From: Microtetraspora niveoalba
GTDB taxonomy: Bacteria > Actinomycetota > Actinomycetes > Streptosporangiales > Streptosporangiaceae
NCBI RefSeq assembly: GCF_001570405.1
Contig: NZ_BBYM01000052.1
Location: 1,044 to 45,696 of the forward strand
DNA length: 44,653 bases
Direction of reading: 5' to 3'
The notes beneath the pieces are model-generated. The model had not been told where the DNA came from. It saw nothing but the letters and a program-made list of their open reading frames with translations, and did not search any database. The first letter of the stretch is position 1, and each line of letters starts with the position of its first letter. Of the stretch, positions 3,624-32,695 are shown piece after piece. A program made the position numbers and the translations under genes.

Positions 3624-3650
3624 TGTTCCGGAGTACGGAACAAGGTTTTG
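3624..3650 (-). promoter_or_regulatory. Operator copy 1 (27-bp regulon element), liv operon
   Basis: On the minus strand this reads AAAAC, 3 nt, GTTCCG, 5 nt, CGGAACA. The inner 19 bp are a perfect 7-bp inverted repeat (TGTTCCG/CGGAACA, 5-nt spacer). It starts 2 nt after the predicted -10 box, which suggests repression of livH. One of eight related sites in the window. Confidence 0.8.
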
Positions 3651-3652
3651 GA

Positions 3653-3682
3653 AACATAGGCTCGCGCTCGTCCGCGTGTCAA
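3653..3682 (-). promoter_or_regulatory. Promoter of liv operon
   Basis: On the minus strand: TTGACA (3682-3677), an 18-bp spacer, TATGTT (3658-3653). The operator begins 2 nt downstream. A TCAGACC motif lies just upstream of the -35 box (3686-3692). Confidence 0.65.
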
Positions 3683-3958
3683 TAGGTCTGACGTTTCAAA
3701 ATGGGACGTTTCGACTGCGACCGCCAAGTCCGGCACACGAGCCCGACATTCGGCCCGACATTCCGCCCGACATTCGACCGACCCACAAACCGGACATATT
3801 GCCCCAAACGCGTGGATCGACGTATAACTCAGACATTCAATCGGGACGCGCGGGCCGGACGTTCGGGCCGGACGTTCGGCTCGGAAATTCAGGCCGGACA
3901 TTCTGGTCCGCAACGTTCGCGCGCGAGATTCCGGCCGCAGACCCAGACCGGACGTGCG

Positions 3959-4036
3959 GGCCGGACGTTCAGGCCGGACACCCAGACAGGACGTTCCGGC
4001 CGGACGTTCAGGCCGGACACCCAGGTGGAACGTTCC
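3959..4036. repeat. Two tandem 39-bp repeats
   Basis: Units at 3959-3997 and 3998-4036 are near-identical, differing only around the middle of the last third (CAGACAGGACG versus CAGGTGGAACG). Both carry the GCCGGACGTTC core that is scattered through the spacer. Confidence 0.85.
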
Positions 4037-4051
4037 GGTCGAAGATCCAGG

Positions 4052-4161
4052 CCGGACATGCAGGCCCGGCGTGTCAGCTCGGGCCTGGCCGGACATGCAG
4101 GCCCGGTGTGTCAGCTCGGGCCTGACCGGACATGCAGGCCCGGCGTGTCAGCTCGGGCCTG
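4052..4161. repeat. Three tandem 37-bp hairpin repeats
   Basis: Units begin at 4052, 4089 and 4126 with one or two substitutions between them. Each contains the inverted pair CAGGCCCG/CGGGCCTG around an 11-nt loop, so a transcript through the array could form three successive hairpins. The last one is extended to a 12-bp stem by flanking sequence. Confidence 0.88.
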
Positions 4162-4165
4162 CATG
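4131..4165 (-). terminator. Hairpin downstream of the hydantoinase operon
   Basis: A perfect 12-bp stem (CATGCAGGCCCG with its complement, 4131-4142 and 4154-4165) and an 11-nt loop lie about 30 nt after the stop of the amidohydrolase gene. There is no U-tract, as is common in high-GC actinobacteria. It is the last and strongest of three tandem hairpins. Confidence 0.6.
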
Positions 4166-4194
4166 TCGCAGGAACGGAGCGCGAGCCCGTTCGG

Positions 4195-5634: not shown

Positions 5635-5662
5635 GCGAGACGGCCGGCCGGCGGGCCGGCCG

Positions 5663-6490
5663 TCACCCCCTTTCCGGTTCGGTCCATCCCATCTGGATGG
5701 ACAGTCGTCGAGTGGAATCAAGCAGTGCCTCGACGCACGCGTCGACCTCCTCGCGGAACCGCTCCAGCGGTCCGCAGACGCTGATGACGGCCACGGGCCG
5801 GCCGTGGTGGTCGAGAACGGGCGCGGCCACCGAGGCGGCGCCCGACATGCGCTCGGCGAAGGACTGCGCCCAGCCGCACTCGCGGATCGCCGCGAGCTCC
5901 TTGCGCAGCTTGCGGACGTCGGTGGTCGCCGTGCCGTTCTGGGCCGCCGGCATGGCCTCCGACAGATAGGCCTCGATCTCCTCGTCGGTGAGGAAGGCGA
6001 GGAACGCCTTGGACGAGCCTCCGACGTGCAGGGGATAGGGCACGCCGAGGGAGACGCTCATGATGACCTCGCGGGCAGGGGTCACCTGGTCCGCGTAGAT
6101 CCTGGTCCAGCCGGTGCGTACGGACAGGGTCGCCGTCTCGTCGGTGCGCTGCGACAGCGTGACGAGCTCGGGTGCGGCGATCCGCCTGATGTCCAGCCGG
6201 TCCAGGTAGGCGAGTCCCAGCCGCATGGCGCCGACTCCCAGGGAGTAGCGCCGGCTGGCCGGGTCGAGCTCGATGAGGCGCCGAACCCGTAGCGACGCCA
6301 GTATCCGGTGGACGGCGGCCTTCGACATGCCCAGCGCCTCGGCGATCTCGGTCACTCCGAGGGTGGCCGAGGGCGTCTCGGCGAAGTGCATCAGCACATC
6401 CGCCGCACGTTCGACGGTGGCGATGGCCTGGCCGGCGCTCTCCCGAACGGGGGCGTCTCCGGACACGGTGCCGCGGCTCTTGGTCGGCAT
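5663..6490 (-). CDS. IclR-family transcriptional regulator
   Basis: A 275-aa regulator. An N-terminal winged helix-turn-helix (about residues 22-85, with LGVTEIAEALGMSKAAVHRIL as the HTH) is followed by an IclR effector-binding domain (about 100-270, including the GSSKAFLAFL and RECGWAQSFAERMSGAASVAAPV regions). The start at 6490 has a strong GGAGGA ribosome-binding site. It sits between the 116-aa protein and the amidohydrolase in one operon, whose upstream region carries operator copy 2. IclR-family operators such as KdgR's GAAAC/GTTTC type match the half-sites of the 27-bp element. I therefore propose this protein as autoregulator and master regulator of the 36-kb locus (inference). Confidence 0.9.
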   Translation of the reverse strand: MPTKSRGTVSGDAPVRESAGQAIATVERAADVLMHFAETPSATLGVTEIAEALGMSKAAVHRILASLRVRRLIELDPASRRYSLGVGAMRLGLAYLDRLDIRRIAAPELVTLSQRTDETATLSVRTGWTRIYADQVTPAREVIMSVSLGVPYPLHVGGSSKAFLAFLTDEEIEAYLSEAMPAAQNGTATTDVRKLRKELAAIRECGWAQSFAERMSGAASVAAPVLDHHGRPVAVISVCGPLERFREEVDACVEALLDSTRRLSIQMGWTEPERG

Positions 6491-6519
6491 GATTCCTCCA
6501 GGAAATCGGTCAGTTTCGC

Positions 6520-6912: not shown

Positions 6913-6939
6913 TGTTCCGCAGACAGTAACGCTGTTTCA
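6913..6939. promoter_or_regulatory. Operator copy 2, divergent iclR / CaiB promoter region
   Basis: On the minus strand it reads TGAAAC, 3 nt, GTT, a divergent 8-nt middle, CGGAACA. Outer half-sites are intact, but the central GTTYCG is reduced to GTT. It lies between start codons at 6870 (minus) and 7054 (plus), so it can control both units, including iclR itself. A TAAGGT (6902-6907) could be a -10 box for the plus-strand unit, ending 5 nt before the site; no good -35 was seen. Confidence 0.75.
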
Positions 6940-7053: not shown

Positions 7054-8310
7054 GTGGAGGCAGAGCAGATCGTTCCGGAGGAACGATCGGCGACGGCTGG
7101 ACGACCGGAGAACCCGGCGGGACCGCTGACCGGTGTCGTGGTCGTCGACGCGGCCACCCTGTTCGCCGGACCCCTGGCGGCGACGATCCTCGGCGACTAC
7201 GGCGCCGACGTCATCAAGATCGAGCACCCCGACCGGGGAGATCCCTCTCGCACCCACGGCGCGAGCAAGGACGGGATCGGCCTGTGGTGGAAGATGCTCG
7301 GCCGCAACAAGCGCGCGGTCACCGCCAACATCGGCAGGCCGGAGGGGGCCGAGCTGCTCAAACGGCTGGTCGCCCGCGCCGACGTGCTCATCGAGAACTT
7401 CCGCCCCGGCACGCTGGAACGGTGGGGCCTGTCCCCGCGGACGCTTCTGGAGATCAACCCGCGGCTGGTCGTCGCGAGGGTCACCGGCTTCGGCCAGTTC
7501 GGCCCGTACGCGAAGCGGCCCGGCTTCGGCACGCTCGCCGAGTCGATGAGCGGCTTCGCCGCCGTCACCGGCGAACCCGACGGACCGCCGACCCTGCCGC
7601 CGTTCGGGCTGGCGGACGGCGTGTCCGCGCTCACCTGCGTGAACGCCGTCATGATGGCGCTGCACCACCGCGACCGGCCGGGCGGCAGCGGCCGCGGGCA
7701 GGTGATCGACCTGGCCATCATCGAGCCCCTGGTCACGCTGCTCGGCCAGCAGCCGCTCGTCTGGGACCAGCTCGGCCAGGTCCAGCCGCGCACCGGAAAC
7801 CGGTCGGTCAACAACGCGCCGCGCAACACCTATCGGACGCGGGACGGCCGCTGGGTGGCCATCTCCACCTCGGCGAACTCGATCGCGGAACGTGTCATGC
7901 GCCTCGTCGGACACCCCGAGGTGATCGACGAGCCGTGGTTCTCCTCCGGAGCGCGCCGCGCCGAGCACGCCGACCTGCTCGACGGGTACGTCGGGAAGTG
8001 GATCGGCGAACACGACCTCGCCGAGGTGGTCGAGGAGTTCGAACGCGCCGAGGCGGCGGTCGCCCCCATCTACGACATCCGCGACGTCTTCGCGGACCCG
8101 CAGTACCGGGCCCTCGACACGATCACCACGGTCGACGACGACGACCTCGGGCCGCTGCGCATGCAGAACGTGCTCTTCCGGCTCTCGGAGACGCCGGGCT
8201 CGATCAGATGGGCGGGCCGCGCGCGCGGCGCCGACAACGACGACGTGTGGGGCGGCCTCGGCGTGAGCGCCGACGAGCTGGCCGTCCTGCGAGAAAAGGG
8301 AGTTGTGTGA
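7054..8310 (+). CDS. CaiB/BaiF (family III) CoA-transferase
   Basis: A 418-aa family III CoA-transferase, moving CoA between a carboxylic acid and an acyl-CoA to activate a pathway intermediate. Family features include the N-terminal VVVVDAATLFAGPLAATILGDYGADVIKIEHP segment, NFRPGTLERWGL, VARVTGFGQFGPYAKRPGFG, and Asp188 in the GLADG motif, the position of the catalytic Asp. The GTG start at 7054 has GGAGG 7 nt upstream. It heads a three-gene plus-strand operon with the cyclase (1-nt overlap) and PrpD genes, transcribed from the region carrying operator copy 2. A second CaiB paralog lies at 20.7-21.9 kb, so there may be two activation steps or different acids. Confidence 0.9.
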   Translation: MEAEQIVPEERSATAGRPENPAGPLTGVVVVDAATLFAGPLAATILGDYGADVIKIEHPDRGDPSRTHGASKDGIGLWWKMLGRNKRAVTANIGRPEGAELLKRLVARADVLIENFRPGTLERWGLSPRTLLEINPRLVVARVTGFGQFGPYAKRPGFGTLAESMSGFAAVTGEPDGPPTLPPFGLADGVSALTCVNAVMMALHHRDRPGGSGRGQVIDLAIIEPLVTLLGQQPLVWDQLGQVQPRTGNRSVNNAPRNTYRTRDGRWVAISTSANSIAERVMRLVGHPEVIDEPWFSSGARRAEHADLLDGYVGKWIGEHDLAEVVEEFERAEAAVAPIYDIRDVFADPQYRALDTITTVDDDDLGPLRMQNVLFRLSETPGSIRWAGRARGADNDDVWGGLGVSADELAVLREKGVV

Positions 8311-9113
8311 TGTCCTTGTGGCGCCACCTCGACGACGCCAAGGTCGTCGACCTCGCGCAGCCCATGCGCACCGGCATGCCGCAGTCGCCGAACCATCCGC
8401 GGTTCCGGATGGTCATCGAGCGCCGGCACGGCGACATGGTCCGCGAGGACGGCGGCTCCGCCGCCAACGAGGTCATCCTCACCGGCGGGCACGTCGGCAC
8501 CCACGTCGACGCCCTCGGGCACGTCTCCCAGGACGGGTACGTGTACGGCGAGGTCGAGGCCGCGGGCATCCAGTCGCACCAGGGCCTGTCCAAGTACGGC
8601 ATCGAGACGTTCACCCCGTACGTCGGCCGCGGCGTGCTGCTCGACGTGGCCGCCGTGCACGGGGTCGAGGTGCTGCCGCCCGGCTACGAGGTGACGCCCG
8701 ACGACCTGGAGGCCGCGCGGCGGCGGGCCGGCGTGGACATCCACCCCGGCGACGCCGTGCTCGTCGGCACGGGATGGTCCCGCCAGTGGGACAGGCCGAG
8801 CCTGTTCGTCGGCGACGAGGGCGGTGTGCCCGGGCCCGGCCCGGACGCGGCCCGCTGGCTGGTCGACCACGGGGTCGCGGTCGCCGGAGGCGAGACGATC
8901 GCGTTCGAGCGGATCGCGCCCGGGCGCGGCCACGCCACGCTCCCCGTGCACCGGATCCTGCTCGTGGAGGCGGGCGTGCACATCGTCGAGACGATGCGCC
9001 TGACCGAGCTGCTCGACCTCGGGCGCCCCGAGTTCCTGCTGGTGCTGAACCCGCTGCCCGTCGTCGGAGCCACCGGCGCGCCGGTGCGGCCGCTCGCGGT
9101 GCTGGCCGCATGA
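8310..9113 (+). CDS. Cyclase-family metal-dependent hydrolase (kynurenine formamidase/isatin hydrolase-like)
   Basis: A 267-aa cyclase-fold protein of the superfamily that includes bacterial kynurenine formamidase and isatin hydrolase, which hydrolyse amides or lactams in a metal-dependent manner. The signature HxGTHxDxxxH is present as His61-Val-Gly-Thr-His65-Val-Asp67-Ala-Leu-Gly-His71. The ATG at 8310 overlaps the CaiB stop (TGATG), so translation is coupled. The protein follows a CoA-transferase and precedes a PrpD protein. With the hydantoinase it makes two candidate amide/lactam-opening enzymes in the locus, which argues for a nitrogen-containing ring substrate (inference). Confidence 0.85.
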   Translation: MSLWRHLDDAKVVDLAQPMRTGMPQSPNHPRFRMVIERRHGDMVREDGGSAANEVILTGGHVGTHVDALGHVSQDGYVYGEVEAAGIQSHQGLSKYGIETFTPYVGRGVLLDVAAVHGVEVLPPGYEVTPDDLEAARRRAGVDIHPGDAVLVGTGWSRQWDRPSLFVGDEGGVPGPGPDAARWLVDHGVAVAGGETIAFERIAPGRGHATLPVHRILLVEAGVHIVETMRLTELLDLGRPEFLLVLNPLPVVGATGAPVRPLAVLAA

Positions 9114-10585
9114 CCTCCCGCGACACGACCTCCCGAGCCGCGACCTCCCCCGACACGACCTCCCACGCCATGACCGTCGTCGCGGCGCTGGCCGAGTTCG
9201 CCGCCGCGAGCCGGACGGGGCTCCCGGACGCCGTCGTCGCCGACGTCACGGGACGCGTGCTCGACACGTTCGGCAACTGCCTCGCCGCCCAGGAGCTCAC
9301 CGGCCCGGCCGAGCCGCACGAGGCGACCGCCCGGATGGCCGCCCGGTGGGGCGGCGCCGGGGAGTCGTCCGTCATCGGCCGCGGGCTGTCCCTCCCCGCG
9401 CCGTCCGCCGCGCTGGTCAACGGCACGCTCGCGCACGCGCTCGACTTCGACGACACCCATCTGCCCTCCGTGCTCCACCCGTCGGCGTCGGTCGTCCCCG
9501 CCACCCTGGCCGTGGCGGAGGCGGTCGGCGCGTCGGGCGCGGAGCTGTGCCGGGCCGTGGCCGTCGGCGACGAGATCACCAACCGGCTCGGGATGGCGTC
9601 CTACATTCCCGAGCTGCGCAACTCCCTCTTCTTCGAGAAGGGCTGGCACGCGACGTCCATCTGCGGCACCGTCGGCGCCGCCGCCGGAGCGGCCCTGCTG
9701 ATGGGCCTTTCCGCGGACGGCATCGCGGACGCCATGGGGATCGCGGCCAGCATGGGCGCGGGCGTCATCGAGGCCAACCGCACCGGTGGCACGGTGAAAC
9801 GCGTCCACTGCGGCTGGGCCGCCCACGCCGCCGTCGTCGCCGCCACCATGGCGGCCGAGGGCGTCACCGGGCCGCCGACCGTCTTCGAGGGCCGGTTCGG
9901 CTTCTTCCAGGCGTTCCTCGACGGCCGCTACGACCGCGACGCGATCACGGACGGGCTCGGCGAGCGGTGGGAGCTGCTGCGCACCGTGTACAAGCCCTAT
10001 CCGTCGAACCATTTCACCCACCCCGGCATCGACGCCGCGCTCGCCCTGCGCGCCCGGGGACTGCGCCCCGAGGACGTGGCGGAGATCGAGCTGGGCGTCG
10101 CCGCCGCCCCGCTGCGCACGATCGGCGAGCCGTACGAGGAGAAGGTGCGGCCGCGCACCCCCTACCACGCGAAGTTCTCCGGGCCGTACACGGTGGCCAG
10201 CGCGCTGGTCGGCGGCGGCGGGCTCGGCCTGCACCTCGACGACTTCACCGAGACGGCCTTCCGCGACGAGCGGCGGCTGGCGCTGGCCGCCAAGGTCAGG
10301 GTGGTGGCCGACGAGGAGTGTTCCGAGGAGTTCCCCCGGGCCTTCTCGGCGGTGCTGCGGGTCCGCACCGTGGACGGGAGCGTCCTCGAACACCGGGTCC
10401 ACTCCTCGCGCGGCGGCCCGGAGCACCCGCTGACGTTCGACGAGCTGCGCACGAAGTACACGCTCAACGCCTCACGCGTGTTGTCGCCGGACGCGGCGTC
10501 GGCGCTGGCGGAGGAGGTACGCGGCCTCGCGGCGCGGGAGAAGGTGGAGGGCCTGCTCGACGCCGCGCTGATCGCGGGCGCCTGA
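9110..10585 (+). CDS. MmgE/PrpD family protein
   Basis: A 491-aa MmgE/PrpD-fold protein, the family of 2-methylcitrate dehydratase, cis-aconitate decarboxylase and iminodisuccinate epimerase. Recognisable segments are HALDFDDTHLPSVLHPSASVVPATLA, GWHATSICGTVGAAAGAA, NRTGGTVKRVHCGWAAHA and KPYPSNHFTHPGIDA. The ATG at 9110 overlaps the cyclase stop (ATGA). The first 20 residues are four in-frame copies of a 15-bp repeat (TSRDT-type), so a start at 9170 (MTVVAALAEF) would also give a complete family domain. It is last in the CaiB-cyclase-PrpD operon and is followed by a strong terminator. A paralog is at 19.3-20.7 kb. Confidence 0.88.
   Translation: MTSRDTTSRAATSPDTTSHAMTVVAALAEFAAASRTGLPDAVVADVTGRVLDTFGNCLAAQELTGPAEPHEATARMAARWGGAGESSVIGRGLSLPAPSAALVNGTLAHALDFDDTHLPSVLHPSASVVPATLAVAEAVGASGAELCRAVAVGDEITNRLGMASYIPELRNSLFFEKGWHATSICGTVGAAAGAALLMGLSADGIADAMGIAASMGAGVIEANRTGGTVKRVHCGWAAHAAVVAATMAAEGVTGPPTVFEGRFGFFQAFLDGRYDRDAITDGLGERWELLRTVYKPYPSNHFTHPGIDAALALRARGLRPEDVAEIELGVAAAPLRTIGEPYEEKVRPRTPYHAKFSGPYTVASALVGGGGLGLHLDDFTETAFRDERRLALAAKVRVVADEECSEEFPRAFSAVLRVRTVDGSVLEHRVHSSRGGPEHPLTFDELRTKYTLNASRVLSPDAASALAEEVRGLAAREKVEGLLDAALIAGA
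9112..9171 (+). repeat. Four in-frame 15-bp tandem repeats at the prpD 5' end
   Basis: Units at 9112, 9127, 9142 and 9157 all begin GACCTCCC and encode five-residue blocks TSRDT, TSRAA, TSPDT, TSHAM directly after the start codon. Confidence 0.85.
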
Positions 10586-12436: not shown

Positions 12437-13117
12437 TCAGGCGCCCGAACGGGGCCAGCGTCGGACGAGGACCGGTCCGGGGAGGTCGGGGAAGGGTTCG
12501 CCGGCCGGGACGTACGCCCAGGTCCGCGCCTCGACGAAGACCGCGTCGAACCCCTCCGCGGCGAACTCCTCTCCGGCGTCCCCGTCGGCCGGGCCGCCGG
12601 GCAGGCGGTCCGGAAGCTCGGCGACGGAGCCGAGCAGCACGGAATCAGGCGGCACAGAACCAGGCGGCACAGAACCAGGCAGCACAGAACCAGGCAGCAC
12701 GGAATCAGGCAGTACGGGGCCGGACGCGACTGGGCGGTCGGGGGCGCTGTGGGAGGCTGCTCCGTCCCGCCAGACAGGAGGGCCGGAGAACCAGGCGACG
12801 GCCAGGCACCCGTCGGGGCCCGCCGAGCTGTCCGACCTGGTCGCCAGCGCGGGCAGGTACTTGTGCGCGCCCGCGGGGAAGCCGGCTCCGCTGACGGAGA
12901 TCCGGCCGTCGAGCGCCACGAACTCCTCGGCGCAGGTGTAGTGGCCGGTGCCCGGCCTGGCCCACCCGGCGGGGAAACGGACCAGCGACACCGACGCGCC
13001 GGTGGCCCGGTCGGCGTGCAGCCGTACGAGCCGCACGGGACCGGACGACGCGGGCATGGTCACCTCGACCCAGGTCAGGCCGGGGGCGTCGAGGTCGACG
13101 ACGCGGACCGTCCCCAT
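12437..13117 (-). CDS. Cupin-like protein with repeat insert
   Basis: A 226-aa soluble protein. The first 110 residues contain a cupin-type pattern (SLVRFPAGWARPGTGHYTCAEEFVALDG, with a beta-barrel-like run), and the last 40 residues (FDAVFVEARTWAYVPAGEPFPDLPGPVLVRRWP) look like a second strand set. Between them is a low-complexity insert of five-residue repeats (PDSVL/PGSVL/PGSVP), encoded by five 15-bp units. The ATG at 13117 overlaps the stop of the lipocalin-like gene (ATGA); a Met three codons upstream is less likely. Cupins bind metals and often act on small substrates, so a dioxygenase or isomerase role is possible but not shown. Confidence 0.72.
   Translation of the reverse strand: MGTVRVVDLDAPGLTWVEVTMPASSGPVRLVRLHADRATGASVSLVRFPAGWARPGTGHYTCAEEFVALDGRISVSGAGFPAGAHKYLPALATRSDSSAGPDGCLAVAWFSGPPVWRDGAASHSAPDRPVASGPVLPDSVLPGSVLPGSVPPGSVPPDSVLLGSVAELPDRLPGGPADGDAGEEFAAEGFDAVFVEARTWAYVPAGEPFPDLPGPVLVRRWPRSGA
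12638..12712. repeat. Five 15-bp tandem repeats inside the cupin-like gene
   Basis: Units of CACRGAAYCAGGCRG start at 12638, 12653, 12668, 12683 and 12698. They preserve the reading frame and encode a Pro/Ser/Val/Leu linker, so copy number could vary between strains without breaking the gene. Confidence 0.9.
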
Positions 13118-13575
13118 CAGTGCCACACCTCCGGGACGGCGCCGTGGACGCGGTGCTCCTCGACGACGGTGATCTGCTCCAGCCGGCCGTCGCGGAACGT
13201 CTTCCAGACGCGCGACTTGTGGTCGTCACCGGTGAAGGTGATCAGCTCGACCATCTCGAGGCCGGGCTCGGCCGTCCACCGGTAGGGGAACAGCAGGAAA
13301 CGCCCGTCGACCAGCCGCGCGCGTCCCTCGAAGTCGGCCGAGTCGAAGACGAGGTCGTCGTCGCCGTCGAACCGCGCCCGGAAGTCGAGCGCCCGCGGCC
13401 CGGCCCCTTCGCGCCGGTGGACGATCCGCTCGTACCAGCGGTCGCCCTCGAGGCGGGTCTCCTGCCGCGACGCGTACGTCTCCAGCAGGACGCCGCCGGG
13501 AGTGCGGTGGGTGTAGGCGCCCTCCCAGACACCGGTGACGGACGACAGGCGTTGACGCAGGGTGGTGGCGTTCAC
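13117..13575 (-). CDS. Lipocalin-like beta-barrel protein (paralog of the 24.4-kb gene)
   Basis: A 152-aa soluble protein with alternating hydrophobic strands, probably a small beta-barrel. It shares a pattern with the 151-aa protein at 24430: a WEGxYT opening motif, a long central DLVFDSADF/RLYFDTERI strand, a YRW motif and a C-terminal SRVWxxxxxGxxxxxTxxxEHR segment. I conclude they are paralogs. The GTG start at 13575 overlaps the CitE stop (GTGA). Lipocalin-like proteins bind small hydrophobic ligands or catalyse isomerisations; a role on a pathway intermediate is inferred only from position in the operon. Confidence 0.78.
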   Translation of the reverse strand: MNATTLRQRLSSVTGVWEGAYTHRTPGGVLLETYASRQETRLEGDRWYERIVHRREGAGPRALDFRARFDGDDDLVFDSADFEGRARLVDGRFLLFPYRWTAEPGLEMVELITFTGDDHKSRVWKTFRDGRLEQITVVEEHRVHGAVPEVWH

Positions 13576-14399
13576 CGTGCCCTCCCGAGGATCCTGCGTG
13601 CCTGGCGGACGACCGCCTCGTCGACCATGCGCCCGCCGGAGTCGAGGAGCACCCCCGATCCGGACGTCTCGAAGCGGTCCACCAGGTCGCGGGCCCAGGC
13701 AAGCTCCTCGGCCACCGGGGTGAAGACCTCGTTGACGACCGCGATCTGCGCCGGGTGGATGCAGGCCCGGCCGACGTAGCCCAGCCGGGCCAGCGCGGCC
13801 GTCGACTCCCGCAGCGCGCCGAGGTCGCGGAAGTCGGTGGAGACGGGGGCGACGGGGGGGTCGATGCCCGCGGCCGCCGAGGCGAGCACCACCTGGGACC
13901 GGACCCACAGCAGCTCGCGCTCGTCGGGGCCGGGGGTGATGCCCGCGTCGGCGCGCAGGTCGGCCTCGCCGACCTGGAGCCGGGCCACGCGGGGAGCCGC
14001 CGCGATGCGGGCGGCCCGCAGGACGGCGGCGGCCGACTCCAGCAGCGGGACGACCGGCAGCCGGTCCGCGCCGAGGGAGGTCAGCAGGGCGTCGATCTCG
14101 ACGAGCTCGTCCTCGGTCTCGACCTTGGCCAGGACGAGGCCGGTCAGCGCGGGCGCGGCGGCGACGGCCCGCACGTCCGGCTCGCGCAGCGCGCCGGGGT
14201 TGACCCGGACCCAGATCTCCACCGGCCCGTGGTCGGCCGTCCGCAGCCACCCGGCCACCGCCTCCCTGGCCGCGTCCTTCCCTGCGGGCGGCACCGCGTC
14301 CTCCAGGTCGACGATGAGCGCGTCCGCGCCCCGGCCGAGCGCCTTGGCGAGCTTCTCCGGCGCGTCGCCCGGAACGTAGAGGTACGACCGGGCGCTCAT
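13572..14399 (-). CDS. HpcH/HpaI-CitE family acyl-CoA lyase
   Basis: A 275-aa CitE-like lyase, cleaving or forming C-C bonds in malyl-, methylmalyl- or citramalyl-CoA type substrates with Mg2+. It starts SARSYLYVPGDAPEKLAKAL and carries the DLEDAVPPAGKDAAR motif with the Mg-binding acidic residues, plus a VVPLLESAAAV strand and a GRACIHPAQIAVVNEVFTP C-terminus. The length is normal for stand-alone CitE-like lyases (about 270-300 aa). The ATG at 14399 overlaps the acyl-CoA dehydrogenase stop. With the MaoC (22.9 kb) and CaiB (20.7 kb) genes of the same operon it resembles the transferase-hydratase-lyase trio used for itaconate or mesaconate (inference). Confidence 0.88.
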   Translation of the reverse strand: MSARSYLYVPGDAPEKLAKALGRGADALIVDLEDAVPPAGKDAAREAVAGWLRTADHGPVEIWVRVNPGALREPDVRAVAAAPALTGLVLAKVETEDELVEIDALLTSLGADRLPVVPLLESAAAVLRAARIAAAPRVARLQVGEADLRADAGITPGPDERELLWVRSQVVLASAAAGIDPPVAPVSTDFRDLGALRESTAALARLGYVGRACIHPAQIAVVNEVFTPVAEELAWARDLVDRFETSGSGVLLDSGGRMVDEAVVRQARRILGRAR

Positions 14400-15565
14400 C
14401 AGGCCCACCCGACCTTGGCGTCGCCGCGGGTGAGGGACTTGGCGACGACGGTGCGCAGCACGTCGTTGGTGCCCTCGCCGATGCTCATCAGGACGGCGTC
14501 GCGGTAGAGCCGCTCCACCTCGTACTCGGTGGAGTAGCCGTAGCCGCCGTGGACCTTCAGCGCGTCGATGGCGGCCTGCAGCGCGACCTCGGAGCAGAAG
14601 ATCTTGGCCATGCCGGTCTGCGTGTCGGCCCGGCCGCGCCTGACCCGGTCCGCCGCCCAGTACGCCATGAGCCGGGCGGCCTGGAGCGTCGTGGCCAGCG
14701 AGGCGAGCTGGAGCTGGACCGCCTGGAAGTCGGCGATCGGCCGTCCGAACGCCCTGCGCTGGCGGGAGTAGGCGAGCGCCTCGTCGTAGGCGCGCTGCGC
14801 GATGCCGACCGAGCGGGACGCGATGTTGACCCGGCCCCATTCGAGCGCGGACAGCGCCTGCTGCATGCCCCGGCCCTCGACCCCGCCGAGCAGGTTGGCG
14901 GCGGGGACCCGGACCTCGTCGAGCACGATCTCGCAGGACTCGGTGCCCTTGTATCCCAGCTTCGGGATGTCCTTGGTGACCTGGTATCCGGGGGTGTCCG
15001 CGTCGACGAGCAGGATGCTCATGCCGCGGTGGGCGGGGCTGGCGGCCGGGTCGGTCTTGACCAGCACCGGCAGCGGGTCGGCGTACCTGGCGTTGGTGAT
15101 CCAGGTCTTGGAGCCGGAGACCACGTAGTGGTCGCCCTCGCGGCGGGCGGTCGTGCGGATGCCCTGGAGGTCGGTGCCGGCGTCCGGCTCGGTGAGCCCG
15201 ATGCCGGTGCGCCGCTCGCCGGTGGCCAGCTCCGGCAGGTAGCGCCGCTTCTGGTCCTCCGTGCCGTGCGTCGCGATCATGCGGCAGGCCAGCGAGTGGC
15301 TGCCGAGGATGCCGGCCACGCCCATCCAGCCGCGCGAGATCTCCTCGAAGACCAGCGCGAACGACACCGGGTCCAGGTCGTGCCCGCCGTACTCCTCGGG
15401 CACGGTGACGCCGAACAGGCCCATGTCCTTGAAACCCTGGACGATCTCGGTGGGGTACCGGCCCGAGTGCTCCCAGTCCCGCGCGACGGGCACGATCTCC
15501 TTGTCCACGAACGCGCGCAGCAGCGCGCGGAACTCACGCTGGTCCTCGTTCAGCTCGAAGTCCAC
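14399..15565 (-). CDS. Acyl-CoA dehydrogenase
   Basis: A 388-aa FAD-dependent acyl-CoA dehydrogenase that introduces an alpha-beta double bond into a CoA thioester. Features include the N-terminal helical domain, GIGLTEPDAGTDLQGIRTTA and YVVSGSKTWITNA in the beta domain, and the C-terminal YSTEYEVERLYRDAVLMSIGEGTND with Glu364 at the usual catalytic-base position. It has the normal length and ends near the family C-terminus. The start at 15565 lies 3 nt after the stop of the DUF35 gene, one of only two junctions in this operon without overlap. Chain length or substrate class cannot be read from the sequence. Confidence 0.93.
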   Translation of the reverse strand: MDFELNEDQREFRALLRAFVDKEIVPVARDWEHSGRYPTEIVQGFKDMGLFGVTVPEEYGGHDLDPVSFALVFEEISRGWMGVAGILGSHSLACRMIATHGTEDQKRRYLPELATGERRTGIGLTEPDAGTDLQGIRTTARREGDHYVVSGSKTWITNARYADPLPVLVKTDPAASPAHRGMSILLVDADTPGYQVTKDIPKLGYKGTESCEIVLDEVRVPAANLLGGVEGRGMQQALSALEWGRVNIASRSVGIAQRAYDEALAYSRQRRAFGRPIADFQAVQLQLASLATTLQAARLMAYWAADRVRRGRADTQTGMAKIFCSEVALQAAIDALKVHGGYGYSTEYEVERLYRDAVLMSIGEGTNDVLRTVVAKSLTRGDAKVGWA

Positions 15566-15568
15566 GAT

Positions 15569-21898: not shown

Positions 21899-22929
21899 GC
21901 GCGCCCTCCTGTGATGTCGGCGATCAGCTTGATGATCGATTCCTGGGCCGCCCTGGTCTCGGCCGCGGGCAGGCCGTGCGTGGGCGGGGTCAGCTTGACG
22001 GTGTCGGCGAGGCCCTCGTAGGCGGCGAGCCGGGCGCGCACCTCGTCCGGGCTCCCGGAGAGGGTGACCGCGTCGGCCATGCGGTCCGGCACCACGCCGC
22101 CGAGGTGGTCGGCGCCGCGGCCGGACCGGAACGCCTCGACGACGGCGGCCTGCTCCTCGGCCAGCCCGTGGAAGGCGAAGAAGTCGGCGTAGCTGCGCAC
22201 GCTGGCGTAGAACCCGACCAGCCCGGCCGCGCGGCGGCGGGCGACCGAGGCGTCCGCGTCCACCGAGCAGCAGGCGGAGACCACGAGGTCGAGGTCGCCG
22301 CGGCCGCGGCCGGGGGCCTTCGCCAGGCCCGCCTCCACCTCGGGGAGGATGCGTTCCCGCAGGTAGGCGGGTGAGCACAGCTCGTGCGAGATCCAGCCGT
22401 CGCCGATCTCGGCGGCGAGCCTGGTCATGGCCGGTCCCACCGCCGCGAGGTAGATCGGGATCCGGGTGCGCGTGACCGGGAAGGGCCGCCGGTAGCCGCG
22501 GATGCTCATCGGCGCGTGCTCGCCGGTCAGGACCATCGGCTCGCCCGTGGTGCAGTTGGCCCAGAAGTGCCGGATGGCCCGGACGGTCTCGCGCAGCCGG
22601 CCGACCGGCTTGCCCCAGGCGACGTTGTGCCAGTCCTCGTTGAGCCGCTGCACGCCGGTGCCCAGCCCCAGGATGAACCGGCCTCCGGTCAGCTCGTCGA
22701 GGTCGAGGGCCTCCAGCGCGGTCACCATCGGGCTGCGCGTGAACGCGAGCGCGATGGCGGTGCCGACCTGGGCGGTCTCCGTCACCCGGGCCAGCGCGGC
22801 GGCGGAGCCGACGGCGCTGCGGTGCATCTCCGGCACCCAGACGACCTCGGCCCCGGCCCGCTCGGCCGCGCGCGCGGCGTCCGCCATCTCGTCCAGGGTC
22901 TCGCCCCATGGACCGTACGTGATGCGCAT
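21895..22929 (-). CDS. LLM-class (luciferase-like/F420-dependent) oxidoreductase
   Basis: A 344-aa luciferase-like TIM-barrel protein. It shows the family run GGRFILGLGTGVQRLNEDWHNVAWGKPVGRLRE and the IPIYLAAVGPAMTRLAAEIGDGW segment. In actinobacteria this group includes F420-dependent reductases and FMN monooxygenases; without a flavin reductase gene nearby an F420-type enzyme is somewhat more likely (inference). The ATG at 22929 overlaps the MaoC stop. A non-aromatic ring or carbonyl oxidation/reduction in the pathway is possible. Confidence 0.88.
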   Translation of the reverse strand: MRITYGPWGETLDEMADAARAAERAGAEVVWVPEMHRSAVGSAAALARVTETAQVGTAIALAFTRSPMVTALEALDLDELTGGRFILGLGTGVQRLNEDWHNVAWGKPVGRLRETVRAIRHFWANCTTGEPMVLTGEHAPMSIRGYRRPFPVTRTRIPIYLAAVGPAMTRLAAEIGDGWISHELCSPAYLRERILPEVEAGLAKAPGRGRGDLDLVVSACCSVDADASVARRRAAGLVGFYASVRSYADFFAFHGLAEEQAAVVEAFRSGRGADHLGGVVPDRMADAVTLSGSPDEVRARLAAYEGLADTVKLTPPTHGLPAAETRAAQESIIKLIADITGGRA

Positions 22930-23450
22930 CAGCCCTCCAGGGTGAGCGGCCGCTCGGCCGTGGGGAACACGCCCTCGACCTGCTCGGCTCCGCGCCGGTA
23001 CACGTAGAAGGTCCGCCTGAAGGAGCAGACCTCCTTGCCGTCCTGGTTGATGGTGCGGGTGCGAACGGTGACGATGCCGGCGTGCGGGCGGCTGGCCGAC
23101 TCGCGCTTCTCCAGGACGATCGACTCGCTCCAGAGCGTGTCCCCCGCGAACACGGGGTGGGTCATCCGGATGTCGTCCCAGCCGAGGTTGGCGAACGCGT
23201 TCTGGGTGAGGTCGGTGACGCTCTGGCCGACCGCGATCGCCACGGTGAACGTGGAGACCACGAGCGGCCGGCCGAACTCCGAGCGCGCCGCGTACTCGGC
23301 GTTGAAGTGCATCTGGTTCGTGTTCATCGTCAGCAGCGTGAACCAGGTGTTGTCCGCCTCGGAGACGGTTCTGCCGAGCGGATGCTGGTAGACGTCGCCG
23401 ACCTCGAAGTCTTCGAAGAACCGTCCCTGCCATCCCGGCTTGACACCCAT
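22929..23450 (-). CDS. MaoC-like hydratase, mesaconyl/itaconyl-CoA hydratase-like
   Basis: A 173-aa MaoC-fold protein heading the 14-gene operon. The segment DNTWFTLLTMNTNQMHFNAEYA is typical of the mesaconyl-CoA hydratase/beta-methylmalyl-CoA dehydratase branch, with His in the motif and Asn in place of the last Asp. With CaiB and CitE proteins in the same operon it completes a transferase-hydratase-lyase set. A purine-rich AAGGGG precedes the ATG at 23450. The promoter (-10 at 23489-23494) and operator copy 3 lie upstream. Function as a short branched enoyl-CoA hydratase is likely; the exact acid is not. Confidence 0.85.
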   Translation of the reverse strand: MGVKPGWQGRFFEDFEVGDVYQHPLGRTVSEADNTWFTLLTMNTNQMHFNAEYAARSEFGRPLVVSTFTVAIAVGQSVTDLTQNAFANLGWDDIRMTHPVFAGDTLWSESIVLEKRESASRPHAGIVTVRTRTINQDGKEVCSFRRTFYVYRRGAEQVEGVFPTAERPLTLEG

Positions 23451-23488: not shown

Positions 23489-23518
23489 AGCCTAAAGGTC
23501 AGACTATTAAGAAATCAA
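23489..23518 (-). promoter_or_regulatory. Promoter of the 14-gene operon
   Basis: On the minus strand: TTGATT (23518-23513), an 18-bp spacer, TAGGCT (23494-23489). The spacer holds the TCAGAC motif (23499-23504 on the plus strand). Operator copy 3 ends 6 bp upstream of the -35 box. Confidence 0.6.
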
Positions 23519-23523: not shown

Positions 23524-23550
23524 TGTTCCGCTGACGTTAACAGCGTTTCA
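23524..23550 (-). promoter_or_regulatory. Operator copy 3, 14-gene operon
   Basis: On the minus strand: TGAAAC, 3 nt, GTT, a divergent 8-nt middle, CGGAACA. It lies about 42-68 bp before the predicted start point, upstream of the -35, where an activator would bind; contrast copies 1, 5, 6, 7 and 8. Confidence 0.75.
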
Positions 23551-23565: not shown

Positions 23566-24276
23566 TCAGGCGGGACGCTCCCGGTCGATCCGGGTGTAGG
23601 TGTCGCGCAGGTGCTCCAGGTGCTCCCGCTGGGCCCGCTCGGCCCCCTGGGCGTCGCCCGCCTCGACGCAGGCGAAGATCTTCCGATGGTCGTCGTCCAC
23701 CCGGTCCCAGAAGCCGTCGGACGCCTCGTCCCGGGCGAACCTGCCCTCGATCACGCCGAACACGGGGGCGGTCACCGCGTCGAGCAGCGGGTTGCCCGCC
23801 GCCTCGAGCAGCGCCTTGTGGAACCCCCGGTTGGCCGTGTACGCCTTGCCCCGCTCGGCCGGGCGCGGCTCGAACAGCGTGCGCCGCAGCGTGTCGAGCT
23901 GCTCGGGCGACCGGCGGGCCGCGGCCAGCCCCGCCGCCGGCACCTCCAGCAGGATGCGCACCTCCAGCAGGTGGGCGACCGAACCCGAGTCGGTGAAGAG
24001 CATCAGGCTGGAACGGAGGTAGCCGCTGATGTCCTCGGGCTCGGGGCGGACCACGAAGCTTCCCCCGGCCACCCCCCGCCGGGTGACGAGCAGGCGCTCA
24101 CTGGACAGGACCCGCAGCGCCTCGCGCACGGTGCTCCGGCTCACGCCGTACAGGGTGCACAGCTCGGGCTCGACCGGGAGGCGGTCGCCCGGCTTGAGCT
24201 CTCCGGCGAGGATCTGCGCGCGGATCCGATCCGCCAGATCCTGGTATGCGGGCGCTAAGACACGATCGGTGGACAC
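23566..24276 (-). CDS. GntR-family (FadR/FCD) transcriptional regulator
   Basis: A 236-aa regulator with an N-terminal GntR winged helix (GDRLPVEPELCTLYGVSRSTVREALRVL, about residues 30-57) and an FCD effector domain with the helical, His-containing region NRGFHKALLEAAGNPLLDAV and the C-terminal DDHRKIF segment. I prefer the GTG at 24276: a TAGGCT -10 box ends 6 nt before it, so the message would be leaderless and the GTG two codons earlier (24282) would lie outside it. FCD proteins respond to carboxylic acids. It may control part of the locus, but the 27-bp element lacks the TnGTnnnACnA core typical of this subfamily. Confidence 0.88.
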   Translation of the reverse strand: MSTDRVLAPAYQDLADRIRAQILAGELKPGDRLPVEPELCTLYGVSRSTVREALRVLSSERLLVTRRGVAGGSFVVRPEPEDISGYLRSSLMLFTDSGSVAHLLEVRILLEVPAAGLAAARRSPEQLDTLRRTLFEPRPAERGKAYTANRGFHKALLEAAGNPLLDAVTAPVFGVIEGRFARDEASDGFWDRVDDDHRKIFACVEAGDAQGAERAQREHLEHLRDTYTRIDRERPA

Positions 24277-24282
24277 GCGCAC

Positions 24283-24316: not shown

Positions 24317-24343
24317 TGTTCCCTCTAGCGAAACGTTGTTTCA
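24317..24343 (-). promoter_or_regulatory. Operator copy 4, between gntR and the lipocalin/MDR operon
   Basis: On the minus strand: TGAAAC, 3 nt, GTTTCG, 5 nt, GGGAACA. It is intact apart from one base in the last half-site. It sits in the divergent region between 24276 (minus) and 24430 (plus) and may serve both. Confidence 0.78.
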
Positions 24344-25978: not shown

Positions 25979-26008
25979 TTGACCCCCGATACCTCAGACA
26001 ATTAAGGT
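25979..26008 (+). promoter_or_regulatory. Promoter of the SnoaL/VOC operon
   Basis: TTGACC (25979-25984), an 18-bp spacer, TAAGGT (26003-26008). The spacer holds TCAGAC (25994-25999). Operator copy 5 begins 7 nt downstream of the -10. Confidence 0.6.
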
Positions 26009-26015: not shown

Positions 26016-26042
26016 CGAAACAGTGTTCCGTGTAACGGAATC
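26016..26042 (+). promoter_or_regulatory. Operator copy 5, SnoaL/VOC operon
   Basis: Reads CGAAAC, 3 nt, GTTCCG, 5 nt, CGGAATC on the plus strand, placed just downstream of the -10 box (repressor position), 33 nt before the ATG at 26076. Confidence 0.8.
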
Positions 26043-30107: not shown

Positions 30108-30134
30108 AATTCCGATATGCGGAACAGCGTTACG
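30108..30134 (-). promoter_or_regulatory. Operator copy 6, substrate-binding-protein operon
   Basis: On the minus strand: GTAAC, 3 nt, GTTCCG, 5 nt, CGGAATT. It begins 3 nt after the -10 box. Confidence 0.78.
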
Positions 30135-30137: not shown

Positions 30138-30166
30138 AGCCTAGGAACGGCTCACCCCGGCGTCAA
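30138..30166 (-). promoter_or_regulatory. Promoter of the substrate-binding-protein operon
   Basis: On the minus strand: TTGACG (30166-30161), a 17-bp spacer, TAGGCT (30143-30138). A TCAGACC motif lies just upstream of the -35. Confidence 0.68.
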
Positions 30167-30181
30167 GGATTGGTCTGATGT

Positions 30182-31693
30182 TTATTCCGGCAGTCGGCGG
30201 ACTGTAAGACCGCCTGCCAGAGCCGCGCCGCGACCGGTCCGCCGCGCGGCGAGCGCGCGCCCGAGTTCGCGCCCGAGCGTCATCGCGGGCGTCACGCTCA
30301 TGCCCCCGACGTAGTTGTCGCCGGCGAAGACGTTGTTGCCGAGCACCTCGCCCACCGCGTACAGGCCGGGGATCGGCGCGCCCGCGCGGTCGAGCACCGC
30401 GAGATCGCCGTCCACGCGCAGGCCGTCCCGGCTGAGCAGGGACGCGGCGACCGAGGTCAGTCCGTAGAACGGGGGCGCGGCGATCGGCGCGGGCAGGACC
30501 GTCCGCCCGTGCTCGGGATCGTGCCCGGCGGCCACCGCCTCGTTGTACCGCCGCACGGTCGCGGCGAGCCCTCCGGGGTCGACCCCGAGCCTGCCCGCGA
30601 GCTCCTCGATCGAGCCGGCGGCGACGATCCAGCGGCCGCTCTCGCACTCGGACAGCATTCGCTCGCGCGTCCAGTCGCCCGTGCCGTTCCTGATCAGCGG
30701 TTCGGCCGCCTCGGCGATGGCGCGGTCCCAGACGACGTGCATCGCGAGTCCGGGCTGCCGCAGCAGCCGGCGTTCCCGGTGCTCGGGGCTCGTGGTGTCC
30801 TCCGCGACGAAACGTTCGCCGTCGCGGTTGACCCAGATCTCGTGCGGGGTCCGGTACGCGGGGGCGACCTCCACGAACGCCTCGCGGTAGTCCACCGCGA
30901 AGCCCGGCCGCCCGGGATCGGGGATCAGCCCCATCACGGGGATGAAGTGCCCGTCGCCGCTCACGTCCGCGCCCAGTTCCTCGGCCAGCGTCAGGCCGTC
31001 GCCGGTCGCGTGGTCGAGGCAGGCGATCAGCGCGTCCTCGCACCCGGGCGGGAGGAACCGGTTCCGCAGGTGGAGGTTCGCGTCGTATCCGCCGCTGGCC
31101 AGGACGACGGCGTCGCCGTACGCGACGACCTCGCCGCCGTCGGCGCGTGCTCCGGTCACGCCGGCCACCCGCCCGCCCTCGAGGACGGCGCCGTCGACCC
31201 GGACGCCCAGGGCCACGGTCACCGCTCCGGCGCGGACGAGCTCGTCGAGCCGCCGCCGCAACACGGCCAGGACCGACCGGCCGAGCTCCACGCCCCAGTA
31301 CGTGCGGGGCGTCGAATAGACCTCGTGCCCGTGCACCAGTCCCGGCGTCGCGGGGTCGAAGTCGAAGCCGAGGCTCTCCAGCCAGTCGACCGTCTCCCCC
31401 TGCGCGCGCACGCTCCGCCAGGCGAGCCGCTCGTCCGCCTTGCCGTGCGACAGCCGCATCACGTCGGCGAAGTGCTCCTCGGGGGTGTCGGCGATGCCGT
31501 GCGCGGCCTGCCGGCGGGTCCCGGCGCCGCTGACCTCGCCGTTGGCGACGTGCAGCATGCCGCCGATCTCCGGCCGCTTGTCGAGCACGAGCACGCGGGC
31601 GCCTCCGGCGGCGGCCTCGATCGCGACGCACAGACCCCCGGCGCCGGCGCCGACGATCACGGCGTCGAACCGGCCCAGCTCGTCGGCGGTCAC
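30182..31693 (-). CDS. FAD-dependent fumarate-reductase/ketosteroid-dehydrogenase-type flavoprotein
   Basis: A 503-aa FAD-binding protein. The N-terminal Rossmann motif is DAVIVGAGAGGLCVAIEAAAGG, followed by ARVLVLDKRPEIGGMLHVANGEVSGAG. It ends with a second FAD-contact region (GLYAVGEVLGNNVFAGDNYVGGMSVTPAMTLGREL). The family transfers hydride at alpha-beta C-C bonds of acids or ketones. The GTG start at 31693 overlaps the VOC stop (GTGA). It is similar in plan to the flavoprotein at 35.2-36.7 kb. As one of two in the locus it could desaturate or reduce a ring or enoate intermediate. Confidence 0.88.
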   Translation of the reverse strand: MTADELGRFDAVIVGAGAGGLCVAIEAAAGGARVLVLDKRPEIGGMLHVANGEVSGAGTRRQAAHGIADTPEEHFADVMRLSHGKADERLAWRSVRAQGETVDWLESLGFDFDPATPGLVHGHEVYSTPRTYWGVELGRSVLAVLRRRLDELVRAGAVTVALGVRVDGAVLEGGRVAGVTGARADGGEVVAYGDAVVLASGGYDANLHLRNRFLPPGCEDALIACLDHATGDGLTLAEELGADVSGDGHFIPVMGLIPDPGRPGFAVDYREAFVEVAPAYRTPHEIWVNRDGERFVAEDTTSPEHRERRLLRQPGLAMHVVWDRAIAEAAEPLIRNGTGDWTRERMLSECESGRWIVAAGSIEELAGRLGVDPGGLAATVRRYNEAVAAGHDPEHGRTVLPAPIAAPPFYGLTSVAASLLSRDGLRVDGDLAVLDRAGAPIPGLYAVGEVLGNNVFAGDNYVGGMSVTPAMTLGRELGRALAARRTGRGAALAGGLTVRRLPE

Positions 31694-32529
31694 GACGCCG
31701 CCCCTCCGGCCCGGCGCAGCTCCACCTCGACGCCCCCGGGCCCGCGTACGGCGTGCTCGGCGAGGCGGACGCCGCCGGCCGCCTCCAGTGTGGCGGCCAG
31801 CGCGTCCGGGTCGGCGGCGGCGAACACCAGCCGGCGCAGCCCGAGGGGCCGGTCGGACAGGTCGCGCGCGTCGACGCCGGTGAACGACATGATCTCCAGC
31901 CGGGCGGGAGCCTGGTCGGCGGACACGAGGAAGGACAGCCGCAGGCTCGCGCCGGCCGGCATGCCGATCATCCGCTCGAACGGCTCGCCCTTCATCTCTC
32001 CGTCGAACGCGACCGTGAGACCGCCCGCCTCGGCGAAGAAGCGCAGCGCCGCGTCGTGGTCGGCGGGGACGATGACGGCGGTGTGCAGCTCGCCGTGCAG
32101 GCGTTCGCCGTCCCCCTCCAGGGCCGGGCTCGGCCGGTGGCCGGGGCCCGCCTGGGGCAGGGTCCACCACACGCCGTCGCGGCCGAGGGCCACGGCCTCG
32201 CTCAGCGAGGCGGAGCCGTACGGATAGGTCACCGGCTCCCTGGACCTGCCGCCCGCCGCGTCGATCGCCCGTACGGACCGGGCGAGGTCGCGCGAGTACA
32301 GGCCGAGCAGCCGGGGGCCGACGTCCCAGACCCTCGGGTCGGCGGCGTCATCCCCGGACGGGGCGGGCACGAGCCGTAGGCGGCCCGTTCCGACGCCCCG
32401 CACGCCGACGAGCGCCTCGGCGCCGTTCCGCTCGATCAGGTCGAAGCCGAACACGCGGGCGTGGAAATCGACCGACGCCTCGACATCCCGGCAGGCGACG
32501 ACCGCCTCGACGATCGCTCCAAGCGACAC
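31690..32529 (-). CDS. Two-domain VOC-superfamily protein (second copy)
   Basis: A 279-aa protein with two VOC units: about 1-130 (VEAVVACRDVEASVDFHARVFGFDL) and 140-279 (ELHTAVIVPADHDAALRFFAEAGG). I chose the GTG at 32529 because the GGAGGA ribosome-binding site lies 7 nt before it; the GTG at 32535 would be only about 1 nt from it. It heads an operon with the flavoprotein at 30.2-31.7 kb under operator copy 7. The reaction is unknown; ring cleavage or isomerisation are candidates. Confidence 0.85.
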   Translation of the reverse strand: MSLGAIVEAVVACRDVEASVDFHARVFGFDLIERNGAEALVGVRGVGTGRLRLVPAPSGDDAADPRVWDVGPRLLGLYSRDLARSVRAIDAAGGRSREPVTYPYGSASLSEAVALGRDGVWWTLPQAGPGHRPSPALEGDGERLHGELHTAVIVPADHDAALRFFAEAGGLTVAFDGEMKGEPFERMIGMPAGASLRLSFLVSADQAPARLEIMSFTGVDARDLSDRPLGLRRLVFAAADPDALAATLEAAGGVRLAEHAVRGPGGVEVELRRAGGAAS

Positions 32530-32551
32530 GGTCACTCCTCCATCTCACTTC

Positions 32552-32578
32552 TGTTCCGATTTGCGGAACGGTGTTTCA
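32552..32578 (-). promoter_or_regulatory. Operator copy 7, VOC/flavoprotein operon
   Basis: On the minus strand: TGAAAC, 3 nt, GTTCCG, 5 nt, CGGAACA: a full match to the consensus. It adjoins the -10 box (sharing one base). Confidence 0.82.
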
Positions 32579-32607
32579 CGCTAGGAGTGGAGGGTCTCCC
32601 GTGTCAA
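32578..32607 (-). promoter_or_regulatory. Promoter of the VOC/flavoprotein operon
   Basis: On the minus strand: TTGACA (32607-32602), an 18-bp spacer, TAGCGT (32583-32578). A very typical sigma70-type promoter, with the operator immediately after. Confidence 0.72.
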
Positions 32608-32632
32608 TGAGCCGTCCGGGACTCACGAAGGC

Positions 32633-32662
32633 TTCCCAAACCGGGACACGCTTCCCTATAGT
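32633..32662 (+). promoter_or_regulatory. Promoter of the nitrilase-like/ALDH/flavoprotein operon
   Basis: TTCCCA (32633-32638, weak), an 18-bp spacer, TATAGT (32657-32662). Operator copy 8 begins 6 nt downstream. Confidence 0.5.
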
Positions 32663-32668
32663 CCGTCC

Positions 32669-32695
32669 AGAAACAGCGTTTCGATACGCGGAACA
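32669..32695 (+). promoter_or_regulatory. Operator copy 8, nitrilase-like/ALDH/flavoprotein operon
   Basis: On the plus strand: AGAAAC, 3 nt, GTTTCG, 5 nt, CGGAACA. It lies immediately before the ribosome-binding site (GAGGAGG) of the ATG at 32706, so a bound repressor would block the start of transcription. Confidence 0.82.

Follow-up and report, generated by a model that had tools for sequence, protein, structure and literature searches.

The 44,653-nucleotide window analysed here, from the Microtetraspora niveoalba genome (positions 1044-45696 of contig C52; the genome assembly comprises 8.47 Mb in 98 contigs; coordinates below follow the window), carries eight copies of a 27-bp promoter element that is a three-box operator of the IclR type. 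The operator is very probably read by the IclR-family regulator encoded in the same gene cluster, with a neighbouring GntR-family regulator as a likely second level of control. Operators of this kind are already known; what our analysis contributes is the regulon itself, its larger extent, the polarity of the operator together with varied promoter layouts, and a second operator with its probable reader.

All eight sites proposed by a previous, sequence-only reading of the window are present (Table 1), although the strict string in which they had been expressed, GAAAC-N3-GTTYCG-N5-CGGAACA, is matched by only two of them (32552 and 32669), the remaining six deviating from it. Scored with a matrix of the eight sites from which it had been left out, each site reached 20.7-38.5 bits and ranked second to ninth in the window, outranked by other sites and by the mirror reading of site 1. 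By comparison, one strand of 10 Mb of Markov-random DNA yielded at most 20.0 bits, and the top window match clear of all eight sites was 10.5 bits. The eight sites are far above chance. As had been claimed, all of them lie outside the gene models, which were produced with a simple codon-usage finder, and the centre of each site is 24-87 bp from the nearest downstream start. Site 1 has a good score on the other strand as well (25.4 bits for the mirror reading at 3616) and thus forms a four-box palindrome (3616-3650); in the six printed orthologues of this site, G096 is similar, G199 and G196 are partly so, and G206 and G277 have the ordinary three-box form.

The consensus TGTTCCG-N5-CGGAAC-N3-GTTTCA, written on the strand in which the conserved dyad comes first, consists of three boxes in alternating direction. 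Box A (TGTTCCG) and box B (CGGAAC) form a first dyad, box B and box C (GTTTCA) a second, overlapping one, and boxes A and C are direct repeats 20 bp apart, approximately two helical turns. From the earlier label 'IclR/KdgR type', IclR can be retained, whereas the KdgR type covers only one of the two overlapping dyads. Three-box operators of the IclR family are described in the survey of Suvorova and Gelfand 2021 (PMC8222616; 32 orthologous groups, 199 regulators). In the consensus, the A-B dyad GTTCCG-N5-CGGAAC agrees with the group 1 motif given there, GKTYCRYW3-4RYGRAMC, with deviations at single sites and a W-rich spacer that is kept only partly, and the B-C dyad GGAAC-N3-GTTTCA agrees with the N1 form of group 2, TGRAACAN1-2TGTTYCA, the middle box being common to both.

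The element had been thought to occur nowhere else and to define a regulon of 36 kb. The first statement holds for the window but not for the genome, and the regulon runs on to a second contig, C55. With at most two mismatches to TTCCGNNNNNCGGAACNNNGTTTC, the genome contains 14 matching rows: eight on C52, three on C55 and three elsewhere. Those on C52 correspond to seven sites and the mirror reading of site 1; site 3, with three mismatches, is not among them. Allowing three mismatches yields 50 matches versus 14 for the reversed pattern, on which ground we regard the weaker matches as mostly chance. The three C55 sites score 28.8-30.8 bits with the eight-site matrix, so that the regulon comprises at least 11 sites. 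A match on C59 (19.8 bits) was dropped as a member, as it lies inside a predicted gene; the two weaker ones, on C62 and C40, score 15.9 and 13.1 bits. A gene-by-gene comparison with three relatives places the orthologues of most genes of C52 and C55 one after another in a single cluster of 44-56 kb. Its length is 51 kb in G096, 56 kb in G196, where the fetched stretch breaks it off, and 44 kb in G277, where the contig end does so and the genes from C55:9931 onward are missing. None of the three clusters contains the amine oxidase/DUF1838 pair of C55. Since the genes of both contigs form one cluster in relatives, C55 likely continues the window, the joint itself lying outside this assembly.

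The promoters of 26106 (25979-26008) and of the C55 bicupin gene (C55:5186; 6515-6543) are alike well beyond the operator, as if copied, which would fit the idea that the repeats are leftovers of duplicated promoters and play no regulatory role. We find this hardly credible: in a family-weighted logo of 109 sites, box columns reach up to 2.4 bits and flanking columns carry little information, and operators are located at the same orthologous genes in relative after relative.

To identify the reader of the element, operator counts were compared with the presence of the regulators in 297 genomes drawn evenly from the family (protein search at E <= 1e-50), 52 of which have an IclR match. The pattern TTCC-N7-GNAAC-N3-GTTHC has 99 matches in the 14 genomes whose best IclR is at least 75% identical (13 of them with at least one match), 25 in 19 genomes at 60-70%, 15 in 19 at 42-55%, and 49 in the 245 without a match. 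With one extra spacer base, the same groups give 2, 10, 1 and 37 matches, and the background in IclR-free genomes is therefore close to chance (37 versus 49). The operator counts thus follow the IclR, which supports the earlier proposal of this protein as regulator to the extent that it is the likely reader. Among the 14 IclRs of at least 75% identity, the recognition helix SKAAVHRILASLR varies only by one I/V and one A/S change; in eight IclRs of 50-55% identity it is TKAAVHRILTALR. The sites in some clusters with TKAAVHRILTALR-type IclRs (G246, G272) tend to TGTTTC for TGTTCC, other such clusters being mixed. Clusters around IclRs of approximately 50% identity (L133, L134, L135, L139, L140) contain three-box sites, several with TTTC for TTCC, and probably represent sister regulons. 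A similar three-box string also occurs near a 29% identical IclR in a Spirochaetales bin (L049, 13941-13967), a genome to which the background model was not fitted.

The GntR protein could be considered as the reader of the 27-bp element instead, as its gene is part of the cluster and site 4 is located in its own promoter. However, among the 14 genomes with an IclR of at least 75% identity, GntR orthologues are at least 77% identical in seven, 45-48% identical in three and without a match at 1e-50 in four, and three of these four keep the 27-bp sites, so that the GntR does not explain them. In addition, the boxes fit both IclR consensuses as given in PMC8222616, and a separate FadR-type motif lies near GntR homologues of 42-50% identity in the five other genomes checked. 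Reading of the element by the GntR is, in our view, very improbable, and control of the regulon by the IclR is well supported by this comparative evidence.

The layout of the predicted promoters suggests how the IclR would act. Sites 1, 5, 6 and 7 and the three C55 sites, seven in total, have upstream of the operator a predicted promoter that combines a TTGAC -35 with a TANNNT -10 at a spacing of 17 or 18 bp; the gaps between -10 and operator are 2, 7, 3, -1 (one base common), 9, 14 and 1 bp, respectively. The operator covers or directly follows the expected start, and bound IclR would therefore repress. Among 113 operator sites, TANNNT occurs 10-14 times at single upstream offsets versus at most five times in shuffled flanks, the sites of relatives not being independent. 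A fixed promoter element downstream of the A box was also considered; most sites have none, their promoters being located upstream of the operator. At site 2, a putative iclR -10, TACTGT (6923-6928), 17 bp from TTCCCA, coincides in part with box B and with the spacer between A and B; this overlap would account for a box B that is off consensus here and for a spacer that is nearly invariant in relatives. At site 4, the operator lies upstream of a conserved -10-like hexamer, and for both sites 3 and 4 the distance to the -10 hardly changes across relatives. CTTCCCAA is found at the -35 position of both the iclR promoter (6945-6952; in most printed relatives) and the 32706 promoter (32632-32639; exact in four of nine printed), which are perhaps activator-dependent or unusual.

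In this genome, all 11 operators are oriented with the A box toward the nearest gene start (two-sided binomial 0.001). Polarity was scored in relatives with the nearest start within 160 bp, in fetched stretches of all 14 genomes with an IclR of at least 75% identity, eight of 19 at 60-70% and nine of 19 at 42-55%. The A side faces the start at 87 of 102 scorable sites in the first set, which includes this genome (C side 15; 11 without a start in range), at 32 sites versus 14 in the second (one without a start) and at 20 versus seven in the third (three without a start). A-side polarity is not a universal rule, and orthologous sites are not independent; some of the exceptions look like mispredicted starts and some like real second sites.

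Five promoters carry a further motif of the FadR/GntR type, contrary to the earlier view of a single control. This motif, AWANNTCWGACNWWT, first noticed among printed orthologous promoters, has six strand matches at five places in the 8.47-Mb genome, all in the regulon, and none in the reversed control. It is positioned directly upstream of the -35 at two promoters and in the -35/-10 spacer at three. It agrees with the FadR-subfamily consensus NyGTM-N0-1-KACNy, with GT and AC 3 nt apart, as given in PMC4494728. The palindromic core GTCWGAC is present at 3682 and 23494, and its left G is replaced by C, A and C at 25989, 30169 and C55 6520, respectively. Within the fetched stretches, a 14-letter form of the motif occurs in 11 of 14 genomes of the set of at least 75% identity (not G003, G187, G171) and in six of eight of the 60-70% set (not G088, G238), there often as AAARGTCWGACYTTT, and is absent from all nine of the 42-55% set. 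Genomes with both regulators have on average 4.08 matches (n = 26), those with only the IclR 1.04 (26), with only the GntR 1.0 (5) and with neither 0.51 (240); sorted by GntR identity, there are 40 matches in seven genomes at 77% or more, 71 in 24 at 42-59% and 149 in 266 without a match. In the five genomes checked with a 42-50% identical GntR, the motif lies 161 bp (G052), 196 bp (G103), 209 bp (G010), 1.1 kb (G016) and 1.4-1.7 kb (G226) away; the nearest listed motif is far off, at 15 kb, in G283 (58% GntR) and, at 9 kb, at a second G226 locus (56%). Because of the fit to the FadR-type consensus and the nearness to diverged GntR homologues, the cluster's GntR is the likely reader of this motif, with less certainty than the IclR for the 27-bp element. 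The motif might instead be a promoter element or the site of another regulator: three of five copies lie in -35/-10 spacers, the left G of the core is present in only 39% of the fetched set, genomes matching neither regulator still have the average given above, and G061, a genome without a GntR match at 1e-50, retains the motif at some of its promoters. We consider this unlikely in view of the two different placements relative to -35/-10, the near-perfect palindrome AAARGTCWGACYTTT in several 60-70% clusters, and the distance of only 161-209 bp before three of the diverged GntR homologues. A near-match of 14 of 15 letters, ATAACTCAGACATT, is located at 3824-3837, in the DNA that separates the amidohydrolase gene from the ABC promoter.

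Sites, statistics, conservation, co-occurrence and promoter layout were computed here, and binding, sign of regulation, effectors and substrate are inferred from them. On this basis, we propose the following model, which we consider likely and in which (i) the IclR most likely binds the three-box operator as a dimer or tetramer; (ii) at sites 1, 5, 6 and 7 and the three C55 sites, bound IclR would cover or follow the start and repress, the same layout applying to site 8; (iii) the iclR gene, with its -10 inside the operator, would repress itself; (iv) at the main catabolic operon (site 3) and gntR (site 4), the operator lies upstream, a position compatible with activation; (v) a pathway intermediate presumably releases or reshapes the IclR; and (vi) the second operator is most likely read by the FCD-type GntR at five promoters as a second control level.

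A purely repressing IclR, whose upstream operators at sites 3 and 4 block the -35 instead of activating, is a serious contender to step (iv) and falls only somewhat short of an even chance. Only 5 bp separate operator 3 from the -35, a distance that would allow overlap, and a plain downstream position is seen for eight of 11 operators, including one whose promoter has a variant -35. In contrast, the nearly constant offset of sites 3 and 4 to the -10 in relatives is as expected for a dedicated arrangement, and the IclR relative BhcR is described as an activator (PMC11323563). A more elaborate version of the model, which we regard as possible but doubtful, takes the polar operator as a positional two-way switch: the IclR would repress peripheral enzymes and transporters over the start, activate the main operon and gntR from upstream of the -35, and swap between the A-B and B-C dyads on ligand binding, with the GntR gating five promoters so that two intermediates would be needed.

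Several points weigh against the proposed control by IclR and GntR. The promoter hexamers were chosen after reading aligned sequences, and all promoters are predictions; the aligned orthologous promoters show no clear -35 at gntR, the promoters at sites 2 and 8 offer no more than TTCCCA as a -35, and whether the IclR activates or represses at sites 3 and 4 is guessed from the operator position. In the 60-70% IclR group, the contrast to the spacing control is modest (25 versus 10 matches). The genome G171 encodes a 76% identical IclR and has neither the cluster nor a pattern match, nor any site above 9.9 in the fetched 40 kb. A GntR is also encoded in many of the clusters, though more diverged, and IclR, enzymes and sites are inherited together, so that the genomes are not independent observations.

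Table 1. Operators, predicted promoters and genes of the regulon (window coordinates unless C55 is given; gene names are positions).
Feature	Coordinates	Strand	Remark
Three-box operator site 1	3624..3650	+	before ABC genes 3586..97; with mirror reading at 3616, four-box palindrome
Three-box operator site 2	6913..6939	+	between 6520/iclR/4195 unit and CoA-transferase unit 7138; holds putative iclR -10
Three-box operator site 3	23524..23550	+	before operon 23450..13117; 5 bp upstream of its -35
Three-box operator site 4	24317..24343	+	between gntR and 24430
Three-box operator site 5	26016..26042	-	before 26106 and 26528
Three-box operator site 6	30108..30134	+	before binding-protein genes 28837 and 27548
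Three-box operator site 7	32552..32578	+	before 31690 and 30182
Three-box operator site 8	32669..32695	-	before 32706, 33794, 35251
Three C55 operator sites	C55		before DUF4437 bicupin gene; between glyoxalase-fold and DUF3598-like genes; between amine oxidase and DUF1838 genes
Predicted promoter TTGACA-N18-TATGTT	3653..3682	-	2 bp from -10 to operator 1
Predicted promoter TTGATT-N18-TAGGCT	23489..23518	-	order reversed: operator 3 ends 5 bp upstream of -35
Predicted promoter TTGACC-N18-TAAGGT	25979..26008	+	7 bp from -10 to operator 5
Predicted promoter TTGACG-N17-TAGGCT	30138..30166	-	3 bp from -10 to operator 6
Predicted promoter TTGACA-N18-TAGCGT	32578..32607	-	-10 and operator 7 overlap by one base
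Predicted promoter TTCCCA-N18-TATAGT	32633..32662	+	variant -35; 6 bp from -10 to operator 8, same layout
Second operator AAACGTCAGACCTAT	3682..3696	-	abuts ABC promoter -35 from upstream, one base common
Second operator	23494..23508	+	in -35/-10 spacer of operon 23450..13117
Second operator	25989..26003	+	in -35/-10 spacer of promoter 26106
Second operator AAACATCAGACCAAT	30169..30183	-	2 bp upstream of promoter 28837 -35
Second operator	C55 (L031) 6520-6534		
Branched-chain-type ABC transporter genes	97..3586	-	97; 831 permease-ATPase fusion; 2717 permease
IclR-family regulator	5663..6490	-	HTH_IclR and IclR_C domains; likely reader of three-box operator
CoA-transferase, cyclase-family hydrolase, MmgE/PrpD	7138..10585	+	
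Main catabolic operon	13117..23450	-	MaoC hydratase, LLM oxidoreductase, class III CoA-transferase, MmgE/PrpD, RidA-like, MaoC pair, thiolase, OB-fold protein, acyl-CoA dehydrogenase, HpcH-type lyase, DUF3598-like
GntR regulator, FCD domain (FadR subfamily)	23566..24282	-	GntR HTH and FCD; likely reader of second operator

One IclR-type operator stands before transport, coenzyme A (CoA), redox and both regulator genes, as the shared control proposed earlier had implied. The regulon families comprise ABC transporters, two class III CoA-transferases, MmgE/PrpD proteins, MaoC hydratases, an acyl-CoA dehydrogenase, a thiolase with its OB-fold partner, an HpcH-type lyase, an LLM oxidoreductase, a hydantoinase-like amidohydrolase, a cyclase-family hydrolase, a RidA-like protein, flavin adenine dinucleotide (FAD) oxidoreductases, glyoxalase-fold proteins and several DUFs. 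In PDB and family searches, the LLM oxidoreductase is near methylenetetrahydromethanopterin reductases, one MmgE/PrpD protein is near IDS-epimerase and cis-aconitate decarboxylase, and an amine oxidase was found. The amidohydrolase is allantoinase/hydantoinase-like, below all cut-offs shown, the RidA-like protein 18127 matches only small RidA/YabJ-type proteins in the PDB, and 31690 has no PDB match at 0.001. The gene content suggests a CoA-dependent catabolic pathway, perhaps for a nitrogen-containing compound, a choice that the PDB and family matches do not settle; the ring-opening step assumed earlier was not confirmed by the family searches. Three small DUF3598-like proteins are encoded in the regulon (13117-13575, 24430-24885 and C55 9326-9754), two of them directly beside operators. 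A SelB-like elongation factor (42704-44485) lies at the window edge, outside the regulon. Literature searches by DUF families or by the regulator pair returned no paper recognisable as this cluster among the matches listed, and a search on the DUF names together with IclR gave none of the three DUF names among the matches listed.

In summary, our study points to a conserved catabolic cluster of approximately 50 kb in actinobacteria that is probably doubly regulated and links little-known families, namely DUF1838, DUF4437 cupins and DUF3598-like proteins. Its 11 sites, of the same polarity and in different promoter layouts, provide a natural set on which to address whether IclR proteins dimerise in alternative ways on three-box operators, a question posed in PMC8222616. 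The operators described there share with ours the order of the boxes and the combination of a group 1 pair (GTT-11-AAC subgroup) and a group 2 pair with a common middle box; here, in addition, the A box points toward the nearest start at every site and some promoters carry a GntR-type motif. PcaU, PobR and HmgR, as cited in the same paper, have three-box operators composed of a dyad and an external direct-repeat box, and PcaU binding needs the third box; their target genes differ, and here one operator is repeated at 11 promoters. The second operator resembles that of E. coli FadR, aaCTGGTCnGACC(T/A)Gtt (PMC9329746), in its core GTCNGAC with GT and AC 3 nt apart, whereas its flanks are A/T-rich (AAAC..) instead of CTG, and the regulator belongs to a different subgroup. 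The closest NCBIfam matches of the cluster's IclR are BhcR (161.2 bits, cut-off 350) and PcaR/PcaU/PobR (115.3 bits, cut-off 284.75), and by these curated cut-offs it is a member of neither the BhcR equivalog nor the PcaR/PcaU/PobR subfamily. In the glycolate metabolism of Paracoccus denitrificans, as described in PMC11323563, the IclR-type activator BhcR and the GntR-type repressor GlcR likewise serve one pathway; however, each of them controls different steps there, whereas in the regulon described here five promoters carry both motifs.

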